Of a stretch of 64,000 nucleotides of DNA, positions 35,241-54,800 are shown one piece after another; within the stretch, counting starts at the first letter, position 1, and the number at the start of each line of letters is the position of its first letter. The stretch spans positions 124,001 to 188,000 of the forward strand of contig NZ_JANKBZ010000001.1 in NCBI RefSeq assembly GCF_024623785.1. The letters run 5' to 3'. The notes beneath the pieces were generated by a model, which searched no databases, was not told the DNA's origin, and saw only the letters and a list, made by a program, of their open reading frames with translations. A program made the position numbers and the translations under genes. The DNA comes from Archangium lipolyticum (GTDB lineage: Bacteria > Myxococcota > Myxococcia > Myxococcales > Myxococcaceae).

Positions 35241-36584
35241 TTACGGCTCCTTCCCCAGCGGATCGAGTCCCACGGCGGCCCGCAGCTCCAGGAGCGCGGA
35301 TCCCAGTGAATAGCGGGCCTGTGCGAGCGATACTTCGGCCTCGAACAGTCTCACCTGCGCATCGCTCAACGCCAGGGACGTGGCAAGACCCTGGCGATAG
35401 AGAATGCTCGTCTCCTCGGCATTCTGTCTGGCGGCCTTCACGGCCACCTCGCCGAGCTCCAGGGCGGCCTGGGCGGTGCGCAGCGACACGCGCGCGCTCT
35501 CCACCGCCACGTCCACCCGCCGCACCCGCGCCTGCGTGTCCAGCTCCTGCACCCGCGTCAGCGCGAGCCGCTCGCGGCGATCGGCGTAGCGCTCGCCTCC
35601 GTCGAAGAGGTTCCAGGTCAGGTCCACCGTGAGAAAACCATTGAACGTACGGCCGGTGAGGCCCGCCTCGTTGGTGGCGCTGCCCTGCGCGGAGGCCGTC
35701 AGCGAGGGGAAGAGCCGCGCCAGGGGCTCCCGCGCGAGGGCCTTCTGCTGCTCCACCCGCAGCCGCGAGGAGAGGATGTCCGGGCGGCGCTCCAGGGCGT
35801 TCTCCGCCAGCCCCGCGAAGGAATCCACGGGACGGGAGGCGTCGGAGAGCAGCGTCTCGGGCGCGGCCAGCGGCTCCTGCACGGGCGCCACCAGCAGGTA
35901 GCCCAGCTCCAACCGGCTCTCCGCGGCGTTGCCCACCGCGTCGGCGAGCTGCGACTGCGCGGTGGCCACGTCCAGTTCCGCGCGCGTCACGTCATTGGTG
36001 CTGGCCAGCCCCGCCTGGGCCCGCGCCCGGGCCTCCTCGAGGGACTGCTTCGCGAAGGTGAGCCTCCGCTCGGCGGCCTCGGCCACCTGCTGCTGTCCCA
36101 GCGTGGTGAGGAAGGCGTTGGCCGCCTGGAAGCCCACCTGCCGGCGTGCCTCCACCGCGTCCAGCTCCGTCGCCTCGCGGTCCCGCTTCGCCGCCTCGTA
36201 GAGCGGAAAGCCGCGTGCATCGAAGAGCGTGATGCGGGCCACGGCGTTGGCCCCCAGGGCATTGAAGCGCTGCAGCACCACCGTCTGATCTCCCACCTGC
36301 CGCGTCGACTCCTGGGGACGGCGCGTATAGCTGCCGTTGAGGGTGAGCCTCGGGAGGAAGAAGGCCAGGGCGCGAGACACGCGGGCCCGGGCGGCCTCGG
36401 AGCGGGCCTGGGCCGACAGCGCGGTCTCGTTGCGCTCGGCCGCGAGCGATACCGCGCGCTCCAACGTCAGCGGCTCCTGCGTGACCTCGGGGGTGGGCCG
36501 CGGCTCCTGCGCGCGCGCCTCGGGCGCACATAGGGCGAGCCACACACACATGGGGACGGCGACGGCGGATCGGATCAAGGACAT
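35241..36584 (-). CDS. TolC-family outer-membrane efflux channel
   Basis: A ~447-residue outer-membrane factor and first gene of the efflux operon. After a signal peptide ending PEARA the protein shows two repeats rich in long amphipathic helices, as in TolC: LTLERAVSLAAERNETALSAQA at the N-terminus, NDVTRAELDVATAQSQLADAVG at mid-protein, and TSLALSDAQVRLFEAEVSLAQARYSLGSALLELRAAVG near the end. The frame is open upstream to 36692. I placed the start at the ATG at 36584 because the signal peptide begins there; its ribosome-binding site is weak. It is divergent from the MopE-like lipoprotein gene across 178 bases that must hold both promoters. Confidence 0.9.
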   Translation of the reverse strand: MSLIRSAVAVPMCVWLALCAPEARAQEPRPTPEVTQEPLTLERAVSLAAERNETALSAQARSEAARARVSRALAFFLPRLTLNGSYTRRPQESTRQVGDQTVVLQRFNALGANAVARITLFDARGFPLYEAAKRDREATELDAVEARRQVGFQAANAFLTTLGQQQVAEAAERRLTFAKQSLEEARARAQAGLASTNDVTRAELDVATAQSQLADAVGNAAESRLELGYLLVAPVQEPLAAPETLLSDASRPVDSFAGLAENALERRPDILSSRLRVEQQKALAREPLARLFPSLTASAQGSATNEAGLTGRTFNGFLTVDLTWNLFDGGERYADRRERLALTRVQELDTQARVRRVDVAVESARVSLRTAQAALELGEVAVKAARQNAEETSILYRQGLATSLALSDAQVRLFEAEVSLAQARYSLGSALLELRAAVGLDPLGKEP

Positions 36585-36762
36585 GTTCGTGCGGAGGGGT
36601 GTGATCCGGAGGGGGAAGGACAGCAGGCCCATATATAGGAGCCAGCCGGGCACGGCCACGGGAACCGCCCGTCTGGACGCTGCATCGCGCATCGGGCTAA
36701 TGGGGAGGGGGACGAAGGGGTTTCTTCACGTCGGGCGCAGGGCGCCCGGGAATGCACGAGCG

Positions 36763-38697
36763 ATGCGTTTATTCCTGGTGACGGTAGGAATGTTGGCGCT
36801 GGCCGGTTGCAAGCGGGATGAGGCCGGAGCGGGAGCCGTGCGCGTGGAGGTCTTCTACGCGACGTTCCACCCCGGGTGCCTCACGGTGACGGTCCAGGAC
36901 GAAGCGGACCCGAGCCGCACCGAGACGCAACAGCTCACGGTGGACGGGGGGAACAGCGACACGAAGACGGTGGCGGTGTTCCGCAAGGCGGACTGGGGCC
37001 GCACCCTCCGGGTGACGGCGAGCGCGCGAGAGATTTCGTGCGCGGGGCCCGAGGTGGCCACCAGCTCGCAGGTGGTGGAGGTGCCCGAGAAGGGCGCCAC
37101 GGCGGCATACCTGGATCTGCGCGCGGAGGACCTGGACGGAGACGGGTACGTCTCGGCGAGCACGAAGGGCTCGGACTGCGACGACACCGACGCCACCGTG
37201 CACCCGGGGGCCGAGGAGAAGTGCGGCGGCAAGGACAGCAACTGCGCCAACGGCGATGACGACGCCACCGACAAGCGCCCGTACTACCCGGACGCGGACG
37301 GTGATGGGTACGGTAACTCGTTGCAGGGGACGGTCGCATGCGCGCCGCCGCCGAACATGGTGGCCCAGGGCGGGGACTGCCACGACACCGACCCCACCGT
37401 GCACCCGGGCCGGGCGGAGCTGCTCTGCGACGGGCAGGACGAGGACTGCGACGGCAAGGCGGACGACGACTTCCAGCTGGGCGCCTCGTGCGAGGCGGAG
37501 CTCGGCTGCGCGGGCAAGCGCATGTCGTGCAGCGCGGATCGCACGGAGGCTCCGTGTGTGCGCACGGAGGAGCCCAAGCAGTGGTACGTGGACAGGGATG
37601 GGGATGCTCGCGCCGGCACGTCCGTGGGCCTGTCCTGCGAGATGCCTCCGGACGCGGTGGCCACCCCGAACGACTGCGACGACACCTCGCGCTTCATCGG
37701 TGGCACCGAGGTGTGCGACGGGCTGGACAACGACTGCAAGGGCGGTGTGGACGAGGGCACAGTGTGCGGCTCGCATGACTGGAAGACGGAGACCGTGAGC
37801 GGCGAGAGCGAGTCGTGGCCCGTGGTGACGACCTACGCCCCGGGCAAGGCGTGGCTCGCGGGCGACGGCGGCAGGCTCGCGCACGTGGACATGAGCGCAC
37901 AGACGCGCGCCACCCGGTTCAGCTGCACGGGAGATTGGAAGGCGGCCTGGGCGAGGCCGAGCGATGGACGCGTCTTCCTCGGCGGGTCGCAGGGCGTGCT
38001 CGCCACCACCACCACGGCGTCGAACGCGACGTGCACCACCGCCTCGGTGCCGGGAATGACGAGCACCCTCAATGGCCTGGTGGGCTTCGAGCGCAACGGC
38101 GTCACCACGGTGTACGCGGTCTCCAGCGGCGGCCACGTGCTGCGCTGGGAGTGGCCGGCCACCCAGGCGGAGCCCTCCGCGCCGGTGATGATGGAGCGGC
38201 TGGCCGCGAACCTGCGGAGCATTCACGGTCTGAGCACGGACACGCTGCTGGCCGTCGGCGCCGAGGACTACCTGCTCGACACCGTACCGCGCGTCTTCAG
38301 CCTCGACACGGCCTCGGGGAAGTGGAAGCGCGAGAACCTGCCCAACAATGTGGGGACGGGCTACCTGCGAGGCGTGTTCGTGGTGGACGGCGGGCTGGCC
38401 TACGCCGTGGGCGACAAGGGACTCGTGCTCAAGCGTGAGAACGGAACGTGGAGCAAGCCGTCGTCTCCCACCGGCGCGGGGTCGGATCTGCGGGACGTGG
38501 TCGCCTTCCACCCCACCCGCGTCTTCGTCCTCTCCAACAAGAGCAACACGTACCTCCACCGCTTCGATGGCACGGCCTGGAGCGAGCCCCTCAACCCGGC
38601 CCAGTCGCTCCTGTCCCTCGATGCCCTCCGGCCCGAGGAGATCTGGGCCTCGGGAGGAAACGGAACGTGGACGCGCTGGGGGCAGCAGAACCCATAG
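36763..38697 (+). CDS. MopE-like lipoprotein with Asp/Cys metal-binding repeats and C-terminal propeller
   Basis: A 644-residue surface lipoprotein. The signal MRLFLVTVGMLALAGC has a good lipobox (LAGC). Residues ~125-340 contain repeats of the 'putative metal-binding motif' type: DLDGDGYV...DCDDTDATVHPGAEE.CGG.DSNC, then DADGDGYG...DCHDTDPTVHPGRAELLCDGQDEDCDG, and a third DRDGDA...DCDDTSRFIGGTEVCDGLDNDC. Asp-x-Asp-x-Asp-Gly loops suggest calcium, and paired Cys suggest disulfides. Residues ~350-640 look like a beta-propeller with repeated GxxWxxxGxxG turns. The start at 36763 is chosen for the lipobox. It ends 4 bases before the first ATPase gene, so it probably leads the lipid-transport operon. 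Confidence 0.75.
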   Translation: MRLFLVTVGMLALAGCKRDEAGAGAVRVEVFYATFHPGCLTVTVQDEADPSRTETQQLTVDGGNSDTKTVAVFRKADWGRTLRVTASAREISCAGPEVATSSQVVEVPEKGATAAYLDLRAEDLDGDGYVSASTKGSDCDDTDATVHPGAEEKCGGKDSNCANGDDDATDKRPYYPDADGDGYGNSLQGTVACAPPPNMVAQGGDCHDTDPTVHPGRAELLCDGQDEDCDGKADDDFQLGASCEAELGCAGKRMSCSADRTEAPCVRTEEPKQWYVDRDGDARAGTSVGLSCEMPPDAVATPNDCDDTSRFIGGTEVCDGLDNDCKGGVDEGTVCGSHDWKTETVSGESESWPVVTTYAPGKAWLAGDGGRLAHVDMSAQTRATRFSCTGDWKAAWARPSDGRVFLGGSQGVLATTTTASNATCTTASVPGMTSTLNGLVGFERNGVTTVYAVSSGGHVLRWEWPATQAEPSAPVMMERLAANLRSIHGLSTDTLLAVGAEDYLLDTVPRVFSLDTASGKWKRENLPNNVGTGYLRGVFVVDGGLAYAVGDKGLVLKRENGTWSKPSSPTGAGSDLRDVVAFHPTRVFVLSNKSNTYLHRFDGTAWSEPLNPAQSLLSLDALRPEEIWASGGNGTWTRWGQQNP

Positions 38698-38701
38698 TCC
38701 C

Positions 38702-39400
38702 ATGGAGCTGCGCGCGGACAGGCTCTCGGTGCGGCAGGGGGTGCGGCCCGTCCTTCGGGACGTGGACTGCACCCTTCCGCCGGGCAGCCGCGTGCTCGTG
38801 ATGGGGCGCTCGGGCGCGGGCAAGACGACGCTGTTCAAGGCGCTCGCGGGATTGGTGGCACCGGCCAGCGGCCGAGTCCTCTGGAAGGGCGAGGACGTAG
38901 CCGGGATGACGCCCGCGGAGAAGCGCATGCGCCAGGCGGCGTTCGGCATGGTGTTCCAGACGGATGCCCTCTTCGACTCGATGACGGTGCGGGGCAATGT
39001 GCTGTTGCCGCTGGAGCGCCGGCACGTGCCCCGCGAGGAGGCGGAGGCGCGCGCGGACGAGGTGCTGCGCGCGGTGGGGCTCTCGGAGGCCGCGGACACG
39101 CTGCCGGAGCGGCTGTCCGGCGGCATGCGCAAGCGGGCCGGCATCGCGAGGGCGCTGGCGGCGAGGCCTTCGGTGCTGCTGGCGGATGATCCCTTCGCGG
39201 GGTTGGACCCGGGCACGGCGCGGCAGGTGGCGCGGGTGCTGCTGGAGGTGGCCGGGAACGGCACGCTGATCGTCGCCGCGCACGATGCGCCACCCGAGCT
39301 CTCCTTCTCCCGCTGGCTGTACCTGCGCGAGGGGCAGCTCGTCTACGACGGCCCTCCGTCCCCCGAGGTGGAGACGCTGGCGGACGAGGCGCTCGCATGA
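38702..39400 (+). CDS. Mla-like lipid ABC transporter ATPase 1 (Walker B Glu to Asp)
   Basis: A 232-residue ATPase of the MlaF/Mkl type. Walker A is GRSGAGKTT (35-43); the Q loop is GMVFQTDALFDSMTV, with the F-D-S-x-T-V of MlaF; the signature is intact LSGGM (138-142). Walker B reads VLLADDPFAGLD, so the catalytic Glu after D162 is an Asp (D163). The switch His lies in VAAHD. The start is the ATG at 38702, 4 bases after the MopE-like stop. The stop overlaps the permease ATG (ATGA). It lacks an MCE gene of its own; see the second block at 43668-46145. Asp at the catalytic-base position usually lowers or abolishes hydrolysis at that site. Confidence 0.9.
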   Translation: MELRADRLSVRQGVRPVLRDVDCTLPPGSRVLVMGRSGAGKTTLFKALAGLVAPASGRVLWKGEDVAGMTPAEKRMRQAAFGMVFQTDALFDSMTVRGNVLLPLERRHVPREEAEARADEVLRAVGLSEAADTLPERLSGGMRKRAGIARALAARPSVLLADDPFAGLDPGTARQVARVLLEVAGNGTLIVAAHDAPPELSFSRWLYLREGQLVYDGPPSPEVETLADEALA

Positions 39401-40173
39401 GCGGGACGCTGGTGTGGCTCGGCCAGGAGGCGCTGGGCGCGGTGAGGGCGGTGGGGGCGCTGGCGATCGTGCTGGCGCGGACGGTGCTGGGACTCTGGCG
39501 GATGGATCGCCGCGAGCTGCTGCGCGGGCTGGAGGAGTTCGGCTGGGGCTCGCTGCCGCTGACGCTGGCGGTCGCGGCGCTGACGGGGGCGACGGTGGTG
39601 GTGCAGACGTCGCTGTACGTGCAGCGCTTCGGGGCGCGGGCGTTCCTCGGGTGGGCGGCGGGGTACGCGGTGCTGTGGGAGTTCGGCCCGCTGCTGCTGG
39701 GGCTGGTGATGGCGGCGCGGCTGGGGGCGCGCAACGCGGCGGAGCTGGCGACGATGCAGGTGGGCGGGCAGCTCGAGGGCCTGCGCGGCATCGGGTTGGA
39801 CCCGTTCGCGGTGCTGGTGGCCCCGCGCGTGGTGGCGATGACGGTGAGCGTGACGGGCCTGTCCACCCTCACCTTCCTGGTGGCCGTGCTCTTCGAGGCG
39901 GTGGCGGCCTTCTTCACGCTGGGGCTGCCGGTGCGCGCCTTCTTCGACAGCTTCGAGCGCATGCTGCACGCGACGGACGTGCTGGGCGGTGTGGTGAAGT
40001 CGGGCGCCTTCGGGCTGGCGATCGCGCTGGTGTCCACGGCGGTGGGGATCCGGGCACGCGGAGGCGCACGGGCGGTGGGCCAGGCGGCCGCGGGCGCGGT
40101 GGTGATGGGGTGCGCGGCCATCTTCCTGCTGGACTTCCTGCTCACCTCCTCGCTCTCGTTCCTGCTGAGGTGA
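39397..40173 (+). CDS. Mla-like lipid ABC transporter permease 1 (MlaE/YrbE type)
   Basis: A 258-residue inner-membrane permease with five to six hydrophobic helices. The MlaE signature is present: YAVLWEFGPLLLGLVMAARLGARNAAELATMQVGGQLEGLRGIGLDPFAVLVAPRVVAM (described at ~90-150), corresponding to the R/W-E-F-G-P and E-L-x-T-M conserved blocks that contact the ATPase. The N-terminal amphipathic helix region (~1-50) is as in MlaE. It overlaps the ATPase gene by 4 bases. The 58-base gap to the next gene could hold a ribosome-binding site only. Confidence 0.88.
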   Translation: MSGTLVWLGQEALGAVRAVGALAIVLARTVLGLWRMDRRELLRGLEEFGWGSLPLTLAVAALTGATVVVQTSLYVQRFGARAFLGWAAGYAVLWEFGPLLLGLVMAARLGARNAAELATMQVGGQLEGLRGIGLDPFAVLVAPRVVAMTVSVTGLSTLTFLVAVLFEAVAAFFTLGLPVRAFFDSFERMLHATDVLGGVVKSGAFGLAIALVSTAVGIRARGGARAVGQAAAGAVVMGCAAIFLLDFLLTSSLSFLLR

Positions 40174-40231
40174 GGCCGGGACTTCGCTTCACTTTGAGCG
40201 AAAGCCCTGGAGTTCTCGTAACATCACACCC

Positions 40232-41161
40232 ATGTCCCGCTCGTTCCCCCTCCGGAGTGCCGGCGCCGCGGCGTTGGCCCTCGTCCTGTCCGCGGCTCCG
40301 ACGACCTCCGCGTGGGCGGCCCGGCCCAAGAACCGCGCGCAGAAGCCGCAGCCGGCGCCAGCTCCCCAGCAGCCACGTGCCGAGGAGCCGCAACCGGTCC
40401 TGCGGACGTACCTGAACGCCGCCCTTCGCTTGTACGAGAGCCTCGAATACGAGCGCGCGCTCGATCAGATCCGCCGCGCGAGGAGCTACACGCGAAGTGT
40501 GGACGATGACGTCACCGTGTCGCTCTTCGAGGGCGTCATCCTGGCGGACATGGGGCGCAAGGAGGAAGCGATCGCGGCCTTCCGCACGGGACTGCTGCTG
40601 CGGCCGGAGGCAACGCTGCCGGTGAAGGTGTCCCCCAAGGTGGAGCGCGACTTCGAGACCGTGCGCCAGGGAGTGCGCCGCGAGCTGGCCACTCTGCAGG
40701 CGAAGCAGCAGGCGGAACAGAAGCCCCCGGAGCCCGGCGAGGAGACGCCCGAGTCCACCCCGGAGGCACAGCCCTCCCGGACCGCGCTCGACGCACCGGC
40801 CACGTCCACCCCGGACGCGGCGGTGGCCACCCCGGCGGCTCCACGTTCGAAGACGCTCTCCTATGCCCTCATGGGCGGGGGCGTGGTGGCGACGGGTGTT
40901 GGCGCGTACCTGGGCGTGTCCGCCCTCTCCTACAACCAGCGCAGGCTGGAGCTGCGCGCCGACGATGCAGTGAAGGCCCGCTCCCGGGCGGAGACGCAGC
41001 TCACCGCGGGCGCGGTGCTGGTGCCCGTGGGGCTCGCCGCGCTCGGCACCGGACTGGTGATGATGTTCCTGCCGGGAGACGCCGCTTCCTCCCCTTCTTC
41101 CACCGTCACGCTCGCGCCGCTTCCCGGGGGAGTCTCCCTGGGTGCCACCGGGCGCTTCTAG
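40232..41161 (+). CDS. exported TPR-like protein with C-terminal membrane segments
   Basis: A 309-residue protein of unknown function. The signal peptide ends TSAWA (~30). A Pro/Gln-rich linker leads to a helical TPR-like region (~60-160: LRTYLNAALRLYESLEYERALDQIRRAR, then SLFEGVILADMGRKEEAIAAFRTGLLLRPEA). An acidic Pro-rich linker follows, and then two hydrophobic helices at ~208-230 and ~265-285. The TPR part is probably periplasmic. It lies between the two lipid-transport blocks and in the same orientation, so it may be an accessory envelope subunit; this is inferred from position only. Confidence 0.6.
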   Translation: MSRSFPLRSAGAAALALVLSAAPTTSAWAARPKNRAQKPQPAPAPQQPRAEEPQPVLRTYLNAALRLYESLEYERALDQIRRARSYTRSVDDDVTVSLFEGVILADMGRKEEAIAAFRTGLLLRPEATLPVKVSPKVERDFETVRQGVRRELATLQAKQQAEQKPPEPGEETPESTPEAQPSRTALDAPATSTPDAAVATPAAPRSKTLSYALMGGGVVATGVGAYLGVSALSYNQRRLELRADDAVKARSRAETQLTAGAVLVPVGLAALGTGLVMMFLPGDAASSPSSTVTLAPLPGGVSLGATGRF

Positions 41162-41183
41162 CCGCCTCTCCGAGGACTCGCCG

Positions 41184-43592
41184 ATGACCTTTCGTCCCTT
41201 CCACCTGATGGTGTGCTGCCTCGTGGTGAGCACGGGGTGTGGCTGGCTGCTGGAGGACTACTCCGGCGTGCTGTGCAACGAGGACGGCAGTTGCCCCTCG
41301 GGCTACTTCTGCGCGGCGGACACCGGGCGCTGCCAGCCCGGAGAGGCACCCGTCGTCGAGGACGCGGGCGTGTGCGCCAGTGTCTCGGCCTGCATCGCGG
41401 ACGACGGTTGCTGCCCGAGTGACTGCAACGCGAACACCGACACCGATTGCCAGCCGGCGTGTGGCAACGGCCAGGTGGAGACGGACGAGGTCTGCGACGA
41501 CGGCAACACGCTCAACGGCGACAACTGCGATCCGACCTGCCGCTACTTCAACGGCGTGTCCTTGTTGTCCGGCGTGCCTGGCTCGCGAGGTTACTCGGAT
41601 GGGCCGCGTGGCGTTGCCCGCTTCCAGGGGCCGAGCCATCTCGCCCAGGGCACGGGCGCACTCTTCCTGGTGGACACGGACAACGCCACGATCCGCCGCA
41701 TCCAGCTCTCGGACGGCACCATCACGACCGTGGCGGGAGCCCCCTTCGAGAAGCAGTACGTCGACGGACCCATGGCCGGTGCGCGCTTCGTCCAGCCCGA
41801 GGACGGGGTGTACTTCAACCAGGAGCAGGTCCTCTATCTGCGGGATCACCTGCTCCTGTCGGACGGAGGCACGTCGAGCCAGCAGGTGCTCCGACGCATC
41901 TCCCTCGATGGCGGCACGGTGGAGACGGTGGACGCCGGCATGGGCTTCACCAATCTCCGTGGACTGGGCAAGGACAACCAGGCCCTGCTCCTGCTGGACG
42001 ACAACGGTCTGCGCCGGTGGGACCCGTCCACGGGCACGAAGGAGACGGTGGTCACCGCCGCCCAGCTCACGGCCATCGCCGGCTCGAACGAGTGTGCGGG
42101 CGTGACGGCCTCCGCGAGTGGCACCTATCCATATTACCTCGCCTGCGGCCAGCTCATCCTGCGCGTGGACGACGCCACTGGGAACATCTCGGTCCATGCC
42201 GGGAACGCGACCTACTCCGGGTGCTCGGACCCGACGGATGGAGGCCTGGGCTCGGCCACCTTCACCCAGGCACGCAACCTCGCCTGGGGGAGCATGACCG
42301 CACTGTCGCAGGGGCCCTTTGGAACCCCCATCATCCGCACCTACTCCTATCTCTTCATCGCGGACCCGGGCTGCCACACCATCAGGGTGCTCTCCTCGGG
42401 CACGCTCACCACCCATGCCGGTGCCGCTTATTCCCCGGGGTATGTCGACGCGGTGGATCCGCTCGCTGCCCGCTTCAACCGGCCGAGCTCGCTCGCGGCG
42501 ATCAACTCCGGGATCAACGCTCCTCCCACGCTGTATGTCGCGGAGCCCGGAAACGGGGTGGTGCGCCAGGTCATAGGCATCTACAACTCGTCGTTCCCGA
42601 GCTCCGTGAGGACCTATGCGGGTGCGCCTCCCAACACCACCTTCGCCTACTCGGACGCGGGGACCACGGCGCGCTACACCCAGGTGACCGACCTCGTCAC
42701 CGATGGGGATGCCGGGGTCGCCTACGCCACCTCGCGCACGGGAGGACGCGTGTTCCAGGTGTCGCTCGACACCGGCGCCTCCGAGGAGTTGGCGGCCTTC
42801 TCCAGCCAGGCCGTGGCCATCACCCGGCTCGAGGGCATGCTCTACGTGGCCCTCGCCGACGGGACGGTGCGCCGGCTCACCCCGGGCTCGGCCACCCTGG
42901 AGCTCTACGCCGGCAAGAGCGGGCAGACCACCCCGGCGGTGGACGGCGATCGCAGGACGACCGCGGTCCTCTCCGCCACGGCCCTGGCCACCGACGGCAA
43001 GGTCCTCTTCTTCGTCGATGACAAGGCACGCAGCATCCGCAAGCTGGATCCGGCGACGAACTTCGTCACGACGCTCGCCGGAGGCGACAGCACCGCCGGC
43101 CCGCCCGCGGTGGTCGATGGCACCGGCCGCACCGCGCGCTTCGAGACCCCGAAGGATCTCGCCTATGACGGCCAGTTCCTCTACACGCTGGACGGCAACG
43201 GTTCCGTCGTGCGGCGGATCAGCATCGGCACTGGCGAGGTCACCACGATCGCCGGCCAGCTCAACGCCCTGGGCGCGCTGGATGGCTTCGGCAAGGAGGC
43301 GCGGTTCGCCGGGGCGCGGGGGCTGACCACGGATGGCCGCTACCTCTTCATCTCGGATCCGGGCGGTGGGCCGATCGTGCCCCCGGATTTCACGGGCCCG
43401 ACCATCCGCGCGCTGGATCTGCGGACGCTCGCCGTCACGACGATGGCGGGAATGCGCGGACACTGGAGCGTCATGGCCGGCCCGGGGACGAGCGCCCGGC
43501 TCAACACGCCGGGCCCCATCGCCTTCGATCCGATCCGCCAGACGGTGGTGTTCTACGACGAGCGGGAGAACAGCTTCCTGCGCATCCGGTGA
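41184..43592 (+). CDS. NHL-type beta-propeller lipoprotein with myxobacterial disulfide repeat
   Basis: An 802-residue lipoprotein. The signal sequence ends VVSTGC (Cys19 lipidated). An EGF/disulfide-type Cys-rich stretch (~28-100) includes the 'Myxococcus cysteine-rich' repeat CGNGQVETDEVCDDGNTLNGDNC. From ~120 to the end there are ~10 NHL/SMP-30-like blades on the pattern GxxxxxxDGxxxxARFxxPxxL(A/S)...LYVAD..NxxIRxI..GxVTTxAG. The final blade ends ENSFLRIR. The start is the ATG at 41184 for the lipobox. The family is expanded in myxobacteria; binding partners are unknown. It precedes the second permease gene by 75 bases. Confidence 0.75.
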   Translation: MTFRPFHLMVCCLVVSTGCGWLLEDYSGVLCNEDGSCPSGYFCAADTGRCQPGEAPVVEDAGVCASVSACIADDGCCPSDCNANTDTDCQPACGNGQVETDEVCDDGNTLNGDNCDPTCRYFNGVSLLSGVPGSRGYSDGPRGVARFQGPSHLAQGTGALFLVDTDNATIRRIQLSDGTITTVAGAPFEKQYVDGPMAGARFVQPEDGVYFNQEQVLYLRDHLLLSDGGTSSQQVLRRISLDGGTVETVDAGMGFTNLRGLGKDNQALLLLDDNGLRRWDPSTGTKETVVTAAQLTAIAGSNECAGVTASASGTYPYYLACGQLILRVDDATGNISVHAGNATYSGCSDPTDGGLGSATFTQARNLAWGSMTALSQGPFGTPIIRTYSYLFIADPGCHTIRVLSSGTLTTHAGAAYSPGYVDAVDPLAARFNRPSSLAAINSGINAPPTLYVAEPGNGVVRQVIGIYNSSFPSSVRTYAGAPPNTTFAYSDAGTTARYTQVTDLVTDGDAGVAYATSRTGGRVFQVSLDTGASEELAAFSSQAVAITRLEGMLYVALADGTVRRLTPGSATLELYAGKSGQTTPAVDGDRRTTAVLSATALATDGKVLFFVDDKARSIRKLDPATNFVTTLAGGDSTAGPPAVVDGTGRTARFETPKDLAYDGQFLYTLDGNGSVVRRISIGTGEVTTIAGQLNALGALDGFGKEARFAGARGLTTDGRYLFISDPGGGPIVPPDFTGPTIRALDLRTLAVTTMAGMRGHWSVMAGPGTSARLNTPGPIAFDPIRQTVVFYDERENSFLRIR

Positions 43593-43667
43593 GCCAGGCG
43601 CCCGGGTGGTTTCGCTCCCCGCGCCGGGCGCGCTACGCTCGGGGCTCCCCCAGGGCCCCCACCCGGA

Positions 43668-44411
43668 ATGAACATCCTCAGCTTCTTCGGAGCCCCCGCA
43701 TTGATGCTCGCGCGCACGGTACGTGCGAGCGCGCGTGATGGCCTGTCCTGGCACGAGTGCCTGCGCCAGCTGCACGAGCTGGGCGGGCGCAGCGCGTGGC
43801 TGGTGACGTCGGGCATGGCCTTCTTCGGGGCCGTGATGGTGACGATCGCGGACAGCCAGGCGAGGAAGATGACGGGGAACCTGCCGGTGGTGGGCCCGCC
43901 CTACTTCGAGCTGATGGTGCGCGAGTTCGGCCCGGTGATGTCCGCGCTGCTGACGGCGGCGCGAGGCGGGGCGAGCCACGGCGCGGAGCTGTCCACCATG
44001 AGCGTGAACGAGCAGGTGGAGGCGCTGGAGATGTCGGCGGGAGATCCGCACGCGGACCTGGTGGCGCCGAGGGTGGTGGCGGGGCTGTTGGGAGTGCCGC
44101 TGCTGTGCGTGCTGGGGACGATGGCGGCGACGCTGTCGGCGGTGGCCACGGCGAGCTGGGTCTTCGGGGTGGACGGGACGGCCTTCATGGACGCGCGGTA
44201 CGTGGACGGGTGGGACGTGGTGGCGGGGCTGGTGAAGGCGGCGGGCTGCGGCCTCTACATTCCGCTGGCGGCGGCGGTGGCGGGCCTGTCCGCGCGAGGA
44301 GGCGCCGAGGCGGTGGGCGAGGCCACCACGCGCGGGGTGGTGGCGGCGTGTCTCGGCTGCCTGCTGATCGACTTCGTGGTGGCGCTGGGCTTCCAGGCGC
44401 TGCGGGTATGA
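43668..44411 (+). CDS. Mla-like lipid ABC transporter permease 2 (MlaE/YrbE type)
   Basis: A 247-residue permease. The conserved block is closer to canonical MlaE than that of permease 1: MVREFGPVMSALLTAARGGASHGAELSTM, followed by SVNEQVEALEMSAGDPHADLVAPRVVAG (~85-142). The N-terminal amphipathic helix reads RTVRASARDGLSWHECLRQLHELG. The two permeases share the E-F-G-P and A-E-L-x-T-M cores but differ around them, as expected for subunits that have specialised. Overlaps the second ATPase gene by 4 bases. Confidence 0.88.
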   Translation: MNILSFFGAPALMLARTVRASARDGLSWHECLRQLHELGGRSAWLVTSGMAFFGAVMVTIADSQARKMTGNLPVVGPPYFELMVREFGPVMSALLTAARGGASHGAELSTMSVNEQVEALEMSAGDPHADLVAPRVVAGLLGVPLLCVLGTMAATLSAVATASWVFGVDGTAFMDARYVDGWDVVAGLVKAAGCGLYIPLAAAVAGLSARGGAEAVGEATTRGVVAACLGCLLIDFVVALGFQALRV

Positions 44412-45139
44412 GCGGGATGCTGCGCTTCTCGGAAGTGGCGGTGACGTTCGAGTCCGGCCGGCGGGCGCTGGTGGGGCTGAGCGCGGAGCTGTCCACGCGC
44501 GAGCTGACCTTCGTGGCCGGAGCCAGTGGCGCGGGCAAGAGCGTGCTGTGCCGGCTGGCGGTGGGACTGCTGAGGCCCGTGTCGGGCCAGGTGGAGCTCT
44601 TCGGCGAGCGGGTGGACACCCTGCCCGAGCGGGCCCTGCGCAGGTTGCGCCAGCGGGCACCGTACCTGGTGCAGGGCCCGGCGCTGCTGGACTGGCGGAC
44701 GCTGCGGGAGAACGTGACGCTGGCGGCCCCGGACCTCCCGGCGGACGCGGTGCACGAGGCGCTGGCCCAGGTGGGGCTGGAGTCCGCGGCCGATCGGCTG
44801 CCCACCGAGCTGGGGCCCGGGGCGAAGAAGCGGGCGGCGATCGCGAGGGCGCTGGCGCTGCGGCCGGAGTACCTGCTGCTGGACGAGCCCACCACGGGGC
44901 TGGACCGGAGGGCGGCGGCACAGGTGGAGGCGGTGCTGGCCTCACTCAAGGCGCGAGGGCTGGGCGCACTGGTGGTGTCACACGACTACCACCTGCTGCG
45001 AACACTGGCGGATCGCGTGCTGGTGGTGGGAGGGGGGCGCTGTGCCTTCCTGGGCACGCCCGAGGCGTTCCTGGCATCCTCGGAACCCGAGCTGCGGGCC
45101 CTGACGGCGCCCTTCCTGGAGAGCGCAACGGATGGATGA
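44408..45139 (+). CDS. Mla-like lipid ABC transporter ATPase 2 (degenerate signature LGPGA)
   Basis: A 243-residue ATPase. Walker A is GASGAGKS (38-45); the Q loop is YLVQGPALLDWRTLRENV; Walker B is canonical LLLDEPTTGLD (D159, E160); the switch His lies in VVSHD. The signature motif, normally LSGGQ/LSGGM, reads LGPGAKKRAAIARAL (135 on), so the Ser that contacts the gamma phosphate and the first Gly are replaced. This is complementary to ATPase 1, which keeps LSGG but has lost the catalytic Glu. The start is the ATG at 44408 overlapping the permease stop; the end overlaps the MCE gene by 8 bases. Confidence 0.9.
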   Translation: MSGMLRFSEVAVTFESGRRALVGLSAELSTRELTFVAGASGAGKSVLCRLAVGLLRPVSGQVELFGERVDTLPERALRRLRQRAPYLVQGPALLDWRTLRENVTLAAPDLPADAVHEALAQVGLESAADRLPTELGPGAKKRAAIARALALRPEYLLLDEPTTGLDRRAAAQVEAVLASLKARGLGALVVSHDYHLLRTLADRVLVVGGGRCAFLGTPEAFLASSEPELRALTAPFLESATDG

Positions 45140-46145
45140 GCGTCGCTTGGAGATGAAGGTGGGCGCGCTGGTGCTGGCGGCACTGGTGGGAGTGCTCGGG
45201 CTGCTGTGGCTGATGGGCGAGCTGCGGACGGGTGGCGAGACGGTGCTCTCGGTGGACTTCGCACACACGGGCAACGTGGTGAAGGGCGCGCCGGTGAAGC
45301 TGGGAGGCGTGGCGGTGGGCCGGGTGGAGGAGATCCACCTGCAGCCGGACCGGCGCGACGAGCAGGGCCGGCCGCTGCCGGTGCGGATGGGCGTCTGGGT
45401 GAAACCGGAGGTACAGGCGGCACTGCGGGCGGACACGCGGGTGACGGTGGCCACGGTGGGGCCACTGGGCGAGCCGTACCTGGAGCTGAACCCGGGCTCC
45501 GCGTCCGCGTCTCCCCTGTCCTCTGGAGTCGCGCTGCGGGGGACGGATGCGCCGCGGTTGGACCTGGTGGCCCAGCAGCTCTCGGCCTTCCTGGACGTGG
45601 CGAGCGGGGCACTGGCGGACGACCCCGAGGGGCTGCGGAAGCTGGCGGCCAACGTGTCGCGGCTGACGACCACGATGGAGAGCGTGCTGAACGAGAACCG
45701 GGGAGACTTGCGGACGCTGGCGGGCGAGCTGTCCGCGGCGGCGAAGGACCTGCGGACGCTGGCGAGGGTGGCCCGCGAGACGATGCAGCCCGGAGGCGCG
45801 GGGGCGCGGCTGCTGGGAGACGCGGCGGACGCGGCGGCGCTGGTGAAGCGCGAGCTGCCCGACATCTCCGGCACGGCGGCGAGGACGCTCAACGGGCTGT
45901 CGGCGGTGACGAGCCAGCTGGACGCGAAGGATGGCGAGCGGCTCAAGCTGGCCCTGGAGCGCTACTCGGCGGCGGGCGAGAAGCTCGATCAGATCGCCGG
46001 GCGGGCGGACCGGCTGCTCCAGCGCATCGAGGCCGGCGAGGGCACGGTGGGAGCGCTGCAGAAGGACAAGCAGATCTACGAAGACCTGCGGGGGCTGCTC
46101 TCGGACCTCAAACAACACCCCTGGAAGGTGCTCTGGAAGGAGTGA
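45132..46145 (+). CDS. MCE/MlaD-family lipid-binding protein
   Basis: A 337-residue periplasmic protein anchored by an N-terminal helix (~9-30: VGALVLAALVGVLGLLWLMG). A single MCE domain (~38-128) contains FAHTGNVVKGAPVKLGGVAVGRVEEIHLQ, the family core, and the VGPLGEPYLELNPG end. A helical tail (~150-335) with LRKLAANVSRLTTTMESVLNENRGDLRTLAGELS and a terminal ILQ-rich segment may form a tunnel across the periplasm, as in other long MCE proteins. It is the only MCE protein in the window and would serve both permease/ATPase pairs. Overlaps ATPase 2 by 8 bases. Confidence 0.92.
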   Translation: MDERRLEMKVGALVLAALVGVLGLLWLMGELRTGGETVLSVDFAHTGNVVKGAPVKLGGVAVGRVEEIHLQPDRRDEQGRPLPVRMGVWVKPEVQAALRADTRVTVATVGPLGEPYLELNPGSASASPLSSGVALRGTDAPRLDLVAQQLSAFLDVASGALADDPEGLRKLAANVSRLTTTMESVLNENRGDLRTLAGELSAAAKDLRTLARVARETMQPGGAGARLLGDAADAAALVKRELPDISGTAARTLNGLSAVTSQLDAKDGERLKLALERYSAAGEKLDQIAGRADRLLQRIEAGEGTVGALQKDKQIYEDLRGLLSDLKQHPWKVLWKE

Positions 46146-48414: not shown

Positions 48415-48835
48415 CAGCTTCTTCGACCGAAAGAGCCAGCCTCAATTCGGTTCGCTCCTCGTCTTCGATCAAGGATTGCACGCGCGCCCTGTTCGCATCC
48501 GAGCAAACCAGCGTTAATCCGTATCCTTCAGCGGGCAGCTTGAATCGATTCAGAACATCTCTCCAATAAAACAACATATCTCCACCTGGATACTCCAATT
48601 CCCGGAGATCCAACACGAACCCCTGACAAGAACCCCGAGGATTCGCCATGGCAGCACCAACAATCATCGCAATAAACACTCCTCCTTCGGGACTACCAGG
48701 CCCCATCCAATACTTCCCTGAAAGCTTCACACACAACACTCGTTGACGACCATCCTGCCGCTTCCAGATGGAGATCTCAAAACCCAATCCTAGAACGCCG
48801 CTCCACATTACCTCTTTGAAAACTGACATGCTCAT
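48386..48835 (-). CDS. small STAS-like protein, candidate immunity protein of the Rhs toxin
   Basis: A 149-residue cytoplasmic protein. The order strand-SGKYWMG...helix, then FVLDLRELEYPGGDMLFYWRDVL (a STAS/anti-sigma-antagonist-like strand-helix), then LTLVCSDANRARVQSLIEDE, then SVEEAVECIL at the C-terminus, recalls the STAS fold. The ATG at 48835 overlaps the TGA of the giant Rhs gene by 4 bases (ATGA), so it is translationally coupled to it. Such a small gene directly after an Rhs tip is the standard place for an immunity gene. Base composition is visibly AT-richer than the rest of the window, as is the Rhs tip. Function is inferred from position. Confidence 0.6.
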   Translation of the reverse strand: MSMSVFKEVMWSGVLGLGFEISIWKRQDGRQRVLCVKLSGKYWMGPGSPEGGVFIAMIVGAAMANPRGSCQGFVLDLRELEYPGGDMLFYWRDVLNRFKLPAEGYGLTLVCSDANRARVQSLIEDEERTELRLALSVEEAVECILGGMG

Positions 48836-51800
48836 TTTCCCGGCACCGGCGCCAATGTTGTTCCCTCCGGCATACGCTTCCAGCACCTGAAGCAAAAGGG
48901 CTTGCTCGGATCGTCACGCATGTTCTCGAATCCGGGGAGAGAGCGAAGATCGGCCTCGATCATCTCCTCCAACTTCATCACCTCCATCGTATTAGACATT
49001 ACCTCGCGAGAAAAACCCTGTGGCAGTTGCTTGTGAACGACGAGCGCATCGACATCGAAGTCAGCGGGATTGAAGGGCCCGCCCGTTGAATACCGCGTAC
49101 CGGTTGAAAGACTGCCACGAATACCGTACTGCACATCTAGACCGAAAACCTCGCGAATCGTGTCGTCGTAGTAGCGGAGGACCCCCAGAGCGCTCTCAAG
49201 CATCTCCTCGCGCGTGGGCGGGCGTGGAGCCATGTTACGCAGGACATCGGCTTGCTCAAGTCCCTCTCGGATCGATGGCAGCCCAGCCGCATGGCGCTCC
49301 GCATTGATGACGGCCGATAGCGCCTCCATATCTGCGCCATGTCGGGCGAGCTGGTCCTCGATTTCGTCCCATTTGTTCTGGGCAAGAGTAGTGGCAACCT
49401 CATCCACATTCTGAACCCCAAACGCAGACCTTGCAGCAGCCGCTTCCTCAAGAGAGCGGAAGTGCTTCATCGATCCAAGCGCGTTAACCCCAGACATACC
49501 AGCCGACATCAATACGCCTTCTGGAGTTACCCGCCCTGTCATCCCGTATTCGGTTGCCACTCCGCCAGCAGTCTCACCAATCAGAAGGAAGCCAGCAGCC
49601 CCAGCCGTTGAAACCCCAGCAGTCTCCACCAAAAGCGGCGCTGCTGCCGGCACAGCCATCGAGATTCCGACCCCCGCCACCAACATCGTCCCCTGGAACC
49701 GGACTCGCGCGCTCCTCAACCTGTTCTCGTGGTACTTCTCGTACTCGCCCATGAAGGTGAGAAGTTGCTGGCCTTGCTGGCCGCGGAACTCACGCTCGTA
49801 TGCAGTTATGGCTCCAGGCTTGTCGCGGCTCTCCACTGCCACGAATTCCTTGAGCTTGGGCTTTGGCTGAACCGTGCGTTCAATGGGACGGAGGGAGCGT
49901 GGGTCGGCCTGAGCGCTCCGTAGACCCAACGTCACAAGAGTGTCATTCCAATCTTCCGCTGCCCATCCCTTGATCTGTTCCCAACTAAAATGACCAGTCG
50001 GGTCAATAAAGCGAAGAGGGTTTACACTGCCATAAATGTATCGATGCAGGCTTGGGGCATCGTTCAACTGCCCTTCGTACAAGTCGCGGCTGATGAACCG
50101 CCCCAAGTCGCTGTCGTAGTACCGGGCGCGAGCATAGGTGAGCCCCGTCTCCGGATCGTACTGGTGCCCTGTGTAACCAAGCTTGAAGTCCGCAGCCAAA
50201 GGCGCGGTCCCACCACGGTAGCTGCCCCAGGCGTCGTACTTGCGCGAAATAGACACCGAACCAGTGTCAGACGTGACGTCGGTCACGCTGCCCAGCGAAT
50301 CCGTGTGGAGAATGCGTGTGTTGGTGCCACCAGAGATTTCGCTGACTGCAAGCGGCCCCGCCGCGTAGTGATAGCGACGCTTCGCCGGTTGGCTTGTCTG
50401 TGCCGCATCCAACTCCTGGAGGACGAACTCGTCATCCAGCACATACGAAACGTTCTCGGCAGCAGTCTTCCGGCTTACCCGCTGGAGGTTCGCATCGTAA
50501 TCATAGCGACCCACTTCCGTGGCGGTAGCGGGAGTGGTGCCCTCGCGCACGACCGTCAGCGTGTTCCGCACGTCCCACGCGAACGTCCGTGTGATCCCAC
50601 CCTTCACCTTCGACACCAGATTGCCGTTGAGATCGTAGCCGAAGGTGATGTTGCGGGCCGCGTCTTTCACATCCGTGCTGGTCCGCAGCCAGTCCGCGCG
50701 ATTGAGGGCGTACGTCACGTCGCGAGACAGACTCGAATAGCTTGCCTCGTACGCCTCGGGCCCCAGCGAGGTGACGTCCGCCGAGGACACTTCCTTCTCT
50801 CCCGTCCGGTTACCCACCGCATCCAGGCGGTAGAGGATTGCCTTGCCCTCTGGAGTTCGAGTCCCCGTCAGACGGTCCAGCTCGTCGTAGCCGTACTCCG
50901 TCCGCTCCTCGGCCCCCAGTGCCTGATCGGCCGGATTGGTCCGCAACTCCTTCAGACTGTTGCGATTGCCATTGTTGTCATAGCCATACTCGGAGCGGCC
51001 GAGGAGCGTCGCGGCGTCCCCCAGGCTGCAATCGTCATTGATCGACCCGCGCGCGGTCAGTTGCTTCGACAACCGGCCTGCATTGTCATAGCACCGCGCT
51101 TCCGTCACCCCATTATTGGGGTACGTGGTGAGCCTGAGCAATCCGTCGGGCCAGTAGAAGTACTCCGTCCTACCCAAGTCGAGGACGGCAGTCTTCAACC
51201 GATCCAACGCATCGTAGGTATAGGTGGTGGTGACGTTGTCCGCGTCACGCACCTCGGTCCGGTTACCCTTGTCGTCGTACTTGTACGTGACGACCGCGTT
51301 TTTATTGCCGTAATAGCGCGCCTGCTGCCACAGCCTGTCCAGCTTGTCGTAGTCGAACCGGGTCTGCTTCAACTCCGGTCCAGATAGCGTCTGCTTCGTT
51401 TCCTTGATGAGGGTCTGATTGCCATTCTCGTCGTACTCGAAGGACTGCGCCTCGACGTAAGGCTTCTCCCGGGTCACAGGGCTCGAGAAGGAGCGCGACA
51501 CGAGGCGATTGAGCACCCCATGGATGGACGTCGTCACCTGCCCCTTCGGGTCCGTCTCGGTCTCGACGTTCCCGTTGGCGTCGTACGTCCACTTCCAGGT
51601 GAGGGTACCGGTCTCTCCGTCCGAAGTGGCCTTCGCCTCGGGGCCGGGCAGGCTGGCACGGCCGGACAGCCTCGGGTGGGCATCCAGGTGCTGGTGCTCG
51701 GCTTCTCGGAGATTGCGCTCATCGAACTCGTACGTCGTCAGGTTGCCGTTGGCATCCTGCTTCGCCACCAGGTTGCGTGCCTTGTCGTAGACGAACGTGT

Positions 51801-54800
51801 ACTGGCCTTCGCCCGCATCCGTCACCCGGGTGAGCTTGCCCAGCTCGTCGTACTCGTACTTCGTGACGTAGTCACCGAGGCACACGGCCGTCTGGATGGC
51901 TTCGATCGACATCCCGAGGGTGTCGCCGTGCGTCAGGGTCGTACCGCCGAGTGGACGCTTCTCGCACAGCTTGTTGCCAGCCTTGTCATAGGCAGACGCC
52001 CACACATGGCCCAGCGCGTTCTCGCGCCGCACCAGGCGGTTCAGCCCGTCGAAGCTGTTGCGCTCGTCGTAGGTGACTGCCTCCGGCGTGCGTGGCCCCT
52101 TCCAGGCCACCAGATTGCCCGCCTTGTCGTACGTGTACCTCGTCGTCGCCGCATCGCTCGTGCCCGCCCCGAGCGTCTCCACCAGCTTGCGTCCGGCTCC
52201 GTCGTACAGCCACTCCTTGCGGTGGAGGTTCGCGTCGATCACCGCGACCACTTCATCCCGGTCGCTGTACTCCGTCTCCTCCTTCTGCAGCAGCGGCGAG
52301 ATGCCTCGGATGGTGCGTACCACACGGCCCAGACCATCCTTCTGCTTCACCAGGGGGATGCCACGGCGGTCGGTGAGTGTCTCCCGCTGGAGGGCATCCT
52401 CGTAGAGGATGGACTGCCGATACTTCACCACCGCGGACCCGTTGACGATGTCCTCATCGTCCTGGGCCTTCAGGCGGCCGGCCTTGTCGTACCGCAACAG
52501 GGTCCGGTAACCCTTGCGATCACGCCGCTCGCGAACATTGACGGCGTCGTAGCGCGAGACCTGCGCCTTCCCCTTCGCGTCCACCACACTGAGCTCTCGC
52601 CCGAGGGCGTCCAGGTAGCGCCGGGTGGTGTTGTCGCGCGCATCCTTCTCCTCCACGGACGTCACACCATCCGGTCCCGCCTGGTCGACGTACGTCCTCG
52701 TCAGCAGGTCCAGGGTCGCCCCACTGTTCGACAGGGACTCCACCAGCCTGTCGGTGACGGGCCGGCGGAACATGTCGAAGGTGAACTCGCGACGAATCCC
52801 CCGCACGTCCACCCGTCCGATGACCGCCCCTTCCCCGTCGTATTCGAGGCTCTCCGTCGCATCCATCGGACGGCGCGTTTCCAGGAGCCGCTTCAGGGCG
52901 TCGTACGCGTACGTCGTCTTGCGATCGAGCGGATCCACCTCGGTGGTCAGGTTGCCGTTGCTGTCGTACCCACGCCGGGAGGTCAGGGACAGTGCGGGTC
53001 CCACCTCTTCGTCAGGCGTGCGCGGCAGCTTGCCGTCCCCATCGTCCACCACCACGCGGATGACGCGGTCGAGGTCATCCTTCACCGTCGTGGTGACGAA
53101 GCCCCGGGCATCCTTCACCGTGACGGTGTTCTCCGCGTCCGTGTAGCGCGTCTCGATGTGCCGCTCGCGCGGGACGAAGGAGCCATTCGCGTTCGGGTGG
53201 AGGTACTCCTCCTCCACATGCACCGGCCGATTGAGTCCGTCATACGTCGTCGTCCGTGTCAGGTGGACGGTGCTGCCCGTGCGCTTCTCGAGGACCCGCG
53301 GGTTCCCGGCGTGGTCGTACGTCTGGCGCTCCTCGCGGCCCTCGGCATCCACCGTGCTCACCAGGCGGTTGGCGAAGTCATAGGCCATCCGCGTGAGGTG
53401 GCCGTTCCCGTCCTTCTTCTTCGTGGGATTGCCCACGAGGTCGTAACGAGCCGTCAGCTCGTAACGCACCGGAAGGACCGACGCGAAGCTCGCGCCCGGC
53501 ACGGAGGGAGCCTGGGTGCGAACGACCCGGTAGAGCGAGTCGAGCACGTAATCCGTCCGCTGCCCGTGGAGGTTGGTCTCGTAGACCTTGTTGCCGACGG
53601 CGTCGTAGCCGAACGTCGCCGTATCCACCTCGCTGGCCGAGCCGTTCACGCCGCCTCGTAGCCCGTACAGCGCCGCCCCTTCCAGGACGCGCACGGAGGT
53701 CCGGATCGGCCGGTCACCCCAGTCGTACGTGGTGATCGTCGTCACCCCACGGCGATCCGTCACATGCGTGCGATTGCCCGCCTTGTCATACTCATACGTG
53801 GTGACGAGCGTCTCGCGCAGCCCCTGGCCGCTCTCGCGCACATTCTTGACGCGGTTGAGCCCGTCGAGCACGTAGCGGCGCTCGAAGCTGATGCTGTCGT
53901 TCTTCTCGCTCTTGAGTTGGCCCCCCGGGTAGTAGTCGAACGTCTGGACGATGGACGGCGATGCCACGGACAGATGTGGCCCACCCGCCACCTTGGTGTT
54001 GCGCCGGGTCGTGCTCTTGACGCGATCCAACCCGTCATACGTCCACTCGGTGTAGTGCCCGAAAGTGTCCTTCTGCTCCAGCGTCAACCCTCTCTTGTTG
54101 CGGAGGAAGTTGGTCTTGAGCTCCTGGCTGTCGTTCGCATACGCCACCTGGACGGAGGGCAGACCCCAGCTGTCATACGCCGCGATCCGGGTGTGCTGGA
54201 TGCGCTCACTGGCACTCGCACCTTCGATCCACGTCTCCAGCGCATCACCCGGGAGTGCTCCCTCGGGGCAGGACAACACGCCATCCACCTTGCACCAGGT
54301 CCGGTGCTGCACGATGTCGTCAAGCCCTGGCGACAGATTCTCCGCGAGCTCCAGACACGTCTTCGTGCTCGTCCGCTCCGCGCTGTCAACGGTCTGCGCG
54401 TACCGGCGGGTGCTCAGGACGAGCCCGGTCCCAGTGACCGTTCCGGTGCGCGGGTCCACGCCGTTGGAGTCCAGCTGCACCCGGGTGATGCGCCCCTCGG
54501 CGTCCATGGAGCAGACCGGCACGCTGAAAGCGGGGTCGTAGCTCCACTTCTCCACCACCTCGCTGTGCACCTTCGTCTCATCCTGGCCGTCCTTGACGGA
54601 CTCGGTGGCCTCGCCATCGCCGGAAGCGGGCAGCGGAGCGAGCGCGATCCGGCGCTCGATGAGGTTGCCGAAGCCGTCATACTTGAAGGCCGTACCGCGG
54701 CTGCGGGCATCCGTCTCGGAGTCGCGGCGCATGTGGAGCGGATCCCACCTGGAGGAGGTCGTCGCCGTGAGCGCCTCGGACAGGGGCCGCTCCGTTCGTG

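Follow-up and report, generated by a model that had tools for sequence, protein, structure and literature searches.

The direction and energetics of MCE lipid transport are debated, and the two described systems closest to the one reported here, Mla and mycobacterial Mce1, have identical pairs of ATPases; known Mla complexes use an MlaF homodimer (PMC7367683), as a preliminary description of our locus had rightly stated, and Mce1 combines a YrbE1A/B permease heterodimer with an MceG homodimer (PMC9882608). In ATP-binding cassette (ABC) proteins each ATP site is assembled from the Walker A and B motifs and the Q- and H-loops of one chain and the signature of the other, and in degenerate sites the loss of the catalytic Walker B Glu is often accompanied by an H-loop change (PMC7756269). 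Here we describe an operon at 38702-46145 of a 64,000-nucleotide stretch of Archangium lipolyticum (contig NZ_JANKBZ010000001.1, positions 124,001 to 188,000; hereafter the window), which encodes two MlaF-like ATPases (ATP1 and ATP2), two MlaE-type permeases (PERM1 and PERM2) and a single MCE protein. Comparison of these proteins with their relatives makes a strong case that ATP1 and ATP2 would form an obligate heterodimer.

The preliminary description had read this locus as two permease/ATPase pairs with one MCE gene, and all of these parts were found where it had placed them (Table 1); its reading of the motifs, LSGGM with Asp163 in ATP1 and LLLDEP with LGPGA in ATP2, likewise agrees with the sequence. 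The operon holds two MlaE-family permeases (PF02405) and one MCE-domain protein (PF02470), all with Pfam matches exceeding the cut-off, as for MCE transporters. We then compared ~80 orthologous loci of the class Myxococcia. Among 74 ATP1 orthologues the LSGG signature and the Walker A Lys are invariant (74/74 each) and the Q-loop Gln is present in 73, and the H-loop His is lost in 72 and kept in 2. All 79 ATP2 orthologues have the Walker B Glu and the H-loop His, and in all 79 the signature is degenerate (GPG in 72, SAG in 5, SSG in 1 and SPA in 1). When the 70 sequenced pairs and the window are read pair by pair, ATP1 always has LSGG, ATP2 always has a degenerate signature together with intact Glu and His, and Glu, His or both are missing from every ATP1 but one. 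The 39 canonical MlaF controls, taken from the listed matches of a contig scan, which were mostly canonical MlaF from many phyla and also included the first Bdellovibrionota pairs, have Glu (39/39), His (39/39) and, in 38/39, SGG. As the lesions are conserved and complementary across 74 ATP1 and 79 ATP2 proteins, and the controls are largely intact, we do not attribute them to chance.

The complementarity of the two ATPases proposed in the preliminary description stands, but the Glu-to-Asp change in ATP1 does not always accompany it: Asp is found in 70/74 Myxococcia and in 38/59 of the Bdellovibrionota proteins discussed below, and one ATP1, that of G146, keeps both Glu and His. What that description had missed is the loss of the H-loop His, which is the more universal ATP1 lesion. 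ATP1 of the window itself has His at this position (codon CAC), versus Pro (CCC) in the four genus-mates compared, and His194 is apparently a single-base reversion in this genome. In three further genomes (G035, G042 and G051) ATP1 has kept Glu but lost His; these exceptions and G146 suggest that decay began with the ATP2 signature and reached the ATP1 Glu last. A side observation on ATP1 is a stop codon in the gene of G020.

In most relatives the five genes form one contiguous run in the order ATP1-PERM1-PERM2-ATP2-MCE. In the genus of the window the PERM1/PERM2 joint carries an insertion of genes; among the relatives compared, the TPR and propeller genes found there are shared with G003 only. 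The break falls instead at the PERM2/ATP2 joint in g16 (by >10 kb in G086) and in g2 (where each of the two parts is on a contig of its own), and g35 has separate loci for ATP1, the permease pair, ATP2 and the MCE gene; all of these broken operons still retain their parts and motifs. Since most relatives have an unbroken operon and the genera with a break differ in where it falls, we reject two blocks as an ancestral design, and with it the earlier view of a transporter split into two blocks as units.

The two ATPases are also seldom found one without the other. Among 147 Myxococcia genomes, 81 have both, 60 have neither and 6 have only one (ATP2 in G007, G095 and G143; ATP1 in G029, G093 and G097); five of these six lie at contig ends, and the other, G007, is a 78% complete metagenome-assembled genome (MAG) in which an unrelated gene occupies the place of ATP1. 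These counts rest on profile scores, ATP2 orthologues scoring ~235 bits and above versus ~221 and below for canonical MlaF, with five divergent ATP1 proteins (G041, G042, G047, G051 and G146) added from reading of the loci; the threshold alone gives 76/3/8/60. The co-occurrence of ATP1 and ATP2 has a Fisher p of ~1e-33, uncorrected for relatedness. We also found no separate MCE gene paired with the first block elsewhere in the window's own genome (12.6 Mb, high-GC), in which four MlaE and three MCE genes were counted. Its C3 and C29 loci are ordinary sets with ATPases having LSGG, DEP and His, and as each of the remaining two MCE genes comes with a permease and a canonical ATPase of its own, none is to spare for ATP1 and PERM1.

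The layout in the window, with two permease/ATPase pairs 3.5 kb apart and one MCE gene, could also be read as a homodimeric PERM1/ATP1 transporter and a homodimeric PERM2/ATP2 transporter that work independently with a common MCE protein. We consider this very unlikely, as both sites of each homodimer would be defective, the LSGG of ATP1 shows no variation even though the active site of this protein is decayed, the pairs are kept or lost together, and the operons of g16 and g2 are not broken between the pairs.

In other classes of the phylum we identified PERM1-PERM2-ATP2-MCE operons in which the ATP2 signature is LGxG. ATP1 adjoins the operon in G159 (LSGG, DEP, H-loop Asn) and G168 (LSGG, DGP, His), and is not adjacent to it in the DNA examined from G187, G189, G190, G194 and G156. 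An ATP2 that has LGxG but no ATP1 beside it leads one to expect an ATP1 elsewhere in the genome, carrying LSGG and a dead H-loop; we looked for such a protein and found it in five of six genomes, namely the five just listed. Each has LSGG and an H-loop Asn or Thr, two additionally have Asp for Glu, and all fall with ATP1 in a tree lacking the motif columns.

The system also extends to the Bdellovibrionota, with strong matches in ~80 of the 192 genomes of that phylum. A Bacteriovorax stolpii MAG (L122), a member of the Bdellovibrionaceae (L075) and one of the Bdellovibrionales (L077) share the order ATP1-ATP2-PERM-PERM-MCE, with SGG/DDP/Asn in ATP1 and SYG/DEP/His in ATP2. We tallied the motifs by regular expression over 68 loci, of which 9 with one partner missed (contig or locus ends, pattern misses) were excluded; complementary motifs were present in 59/59 readable pairs, with SGG in ATP1 and Asn, Ser or Thr replacing its His in every case, and with SYG (LSYG) or SFG, Glu and His in ATP2. 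This signature lesion is not the one found in the Myxococcota, and may reflect a separate origin or drift after a common loss.

In an ATPase tree of 126 rows, with the motif columns removed, ATP2 of Myxococcota and Bdellovibrionota lies on one side of a branch with support 85; a single clade of ATP1 and the unlinked orphans is not rejected, and the tree with this clade has the higher likelihood. The permease phylogeny, which bears out the earlier remark that the two permeases differ, groups each across both phyla (PERM1 95*, PERM2 93) as two distinct clades that are always paired, PERM2 being an ancient clade separate from PERM1. Because Myxococcota and Bdellovibrionota members fall together for every one of the four core subunits, the system appears ancient, and is most simply read as descending from a single ancestral core of four subunits. 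Within the genus the genes are under purifying selection: the ratio of non-synonymous to synonymous substitution rates (dN/dS) is 0.27 for ATP1 and 0.18 for ATP2, with medians over genes of 0.18-0.35.

ATP1, with its lesions and LSGG, and ATP2, with its altered signature and intact Walker A/B and H-loop, together show both sequence features of asymmetric ABC transporters, and as the parts of an ATP site come from both chains (PMC7756269), pairing them would give a heterodimer with one consensus site and every lesion in the other. We regard it as highly probable, from sequence comparison, that the locus encodes an MCE lipid transporter with such an obligate ATPase heterodimer and one hydrolysing site. 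Its inner-membrane ABC core would consist of PERM1, PERM2, ATP1 and ATP2 in a 1:1:1:1 ratio, with a ring of one MCE protein, presumably a hexamer, above it, and the substrate would be a lipid. The consensus site, formed by the Walker A/B motifs and Q- and H-loops of ATP2 and the LSGG of ATP1, would hydrolyse ATP. The second site, to which ATP1 contributes Walker A and its crippled Walker B and H-loop and ATP2 its degenerate signature, probably still binds ATP, as the Walker A Lys and the Q-loop persist; it would be slow or inactive in hydrolysis and may have a hinge role, as in TAP1/TAP2 and TM287/288.

Several observations weigh against this heterodimer. In G146 the Glu and His of ATP1 are intact and ATP2 has GPG, so that the second site is degenerate by its signature only. 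The cross-phylum groupings of ATP2 and PERM2 lie under the starred level of support, and the 59 Bdellovibrionota pairs were drawn from the strongest matches. Lastly, no ATP1 was found in G191, which is listed as 100% complete, despite an ATP2 with LGPG. This apparent occurrence of ATP2 without ATP1 would fit a transporter in which ATP1 is decaying or purely regulatory and an ATP2 homodimer acts via its altered signature, as would one MlaF control with LSVG (L091), where no second MlaF was seen. Such a role of ATP1 is still less likely than two homodimeric transporters, given the purifying selection on ATP1, its occurrence with ATP2 in 81 of the 87 genomes having either, its invariant LSGG and Walker A Lys, and its persistence as an unlinked gene in other classes. 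The least probable alternative, that ATP2 pairs with another ATPase and ATP1 pairs elsewhere, could draw on an orphan of the window's own genome (C16; LSGG, DDP, H-loop Pro, no MlaE neighbour), but we reject this partner because it groups with canonical MlaF, not ATP1, which makes its decay independent, and because it is also present in G032, which has neither ATP1 nor ATP2, and ATP1 shares an operon with ATP2 in most genomes.

The LSVG control is the product of L091 7992-8732 (Elusimicrobia), an MlaF-like ATPase with a single permease beside it; it may be a degenerate homodimer or have a partner that was missed.

The heterodimer of ATP1 and ATP2 would sit on two permeases that themselves differ at one conserved position. 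In 14 Myxococcota rows PERM1 has Gly for the Glu of a conserved (T/S/N)EQ(I/V)(D/E)A stretch, presumed to be the coupling helix (VGGQLEGL in the window); no such Gly was found in PERM2, nor in 17 canonical permeases with a readable pattern. This Glu-to-Gly change would lie on the same side of the complex as the defective ATPase. The MCE protein (337 residues) has one N-terminal membrane helix, one MCE domain (residues 39-122) and a ~200-residue helical tail, whose helices were predicted at 143-335 with low confidence, the model having a mean predicted local distance difference test score (pLDDT) of 51.5 and being poor beyond the MCE domain. It also matches the NCBIfam Mce family, below threshold.

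Table 1. Coordinates of the transporter genes, their motifs and the inserted genes in the window, and of the orphan ATPase on its own contig.
Feature	Position	Strand	Remarks
ATP1, MlaF-like ATPase	38702..39400	+	LSGG intact, Walker B Asp163, H-loop residue His194
ATP1 signature LSGG (LSGGM)	39113..39124	+	
ATP1 Asp163 codon replacing catalytic Walker B Glu (LLADDP)	39188..39190	+	
ATP1 H-loop codon CAC (His194)	39281..39283	+	
PERM1, MlaE-type permease	39397..40173	+	Pfam MlaE PF02405, 178 bits
TPR-like protein	40232..41161	+	belongs to the genus-level insertion, outside the transporter
beta-propeller-like (NHL-type) putative lipoprotein	41184..43592	+	same insertion as the TPR gene, outside the transporter
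PERM2, MlaE-type permease	43668..44411	+	Pfam MlaE PF02405, 157 bits
ATP2, MlaF-like ATPase	44408..45139	+	Walker A/B and H-loop H192 intact
ATP2 LGPG (LGPGA) replacing LSGG	44810..44821	+	
ATP2 Walker B LLLDEP, E160 codon	44885..44887	+	
MCE protein	45132..46145	+	Pfam MlaD PF02470, 48 bits
Orphan MlaF-like ATPase	G000:C16:201574-202239 (L213 5482-6336)	-	also in G034 and G032

Some neighbouring genes recur. A large MopE-type metal-binding repeat protein is encoded directly 5' of ATP1 in the window (36337-38697), and is kept in eight loci. In several genera a gene for an ABC1/UbiB-type atypical kinase lies upstream of ATP1, either directly 5' (L055, L057, L061, L063, L064 and L070) or closely 5' (L054, L056 and L058), which offers a lead on function or substrate. 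The window also contains an RHS/YD-type repeat open frame of 3929 residues on the minus strand (48832-60621).

We put at about even the chance that these loci represent an ancient class of MCE system that predates the split between Myxococcota and Bdellovibrionota or was passed whole between them, and whose asymmetric four-chain core with one hydrolysing site would give lipid movement a built-in polarity absent from the symmetric Mla and Mce. A naturally asymmetric version in two phyla, including predatory bacteria, would allow individual steps to be traced to one ATP site or the other, and as ATP1 and ATP2 are on separate genes they can be mutated individually. Such a version would likewise carry the degenerate-site principle, for which exporters such as TAP are the best-studied cases, over to ABC transporters of a different structural class. 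We found no heterodimeric MlaF or MceG, and no MCE system with a heterodimeric ATPase, in open-access full text, a search that mostly did not cover subscription papers and preprints.

With E. coli MlaFEDB the locus shares an MlaE-type permease, an MlaF-like ATPase (LSGGM in ATP1) and an MCE protein. However, MlaFEDB has an MlaF homodimer and MlaB (PMC7367683, PMC7790496), whereas here there are two ATPases with complementary defects that would form a heterodimer, two permeases, a long helical MCE tail and no STAS/MlaB gene within the operon (STAS genes elsewhere were not searched for). Thus the MCE part of the earlier label "Mla/MCE" is apt, but Mla is too narrow, as the long MCE tail places the system outside Mla under the strict definition of PMC7790496. 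Mycobacterial Mce1 also has two MlaE-type permeases and a long helical MCE region, but it combines its homodimeric MceG with six different MCE proteins (PMC9882608), in place of the two ATPase genes and one MCE gene found here. In their lesions the ATPases resemble those of TAP1/TAP2, TM287/288 and BmrCD, where one chain lacks Glu and often has an altered H-loop too, while the signature is altered in the other (PMC7756269); those transporters are exporters that have a different fold and whose permease and ATPase are fused in one chain, whereas the system of Archangium lipolyticum is of the MCE type and built from separate subunits.

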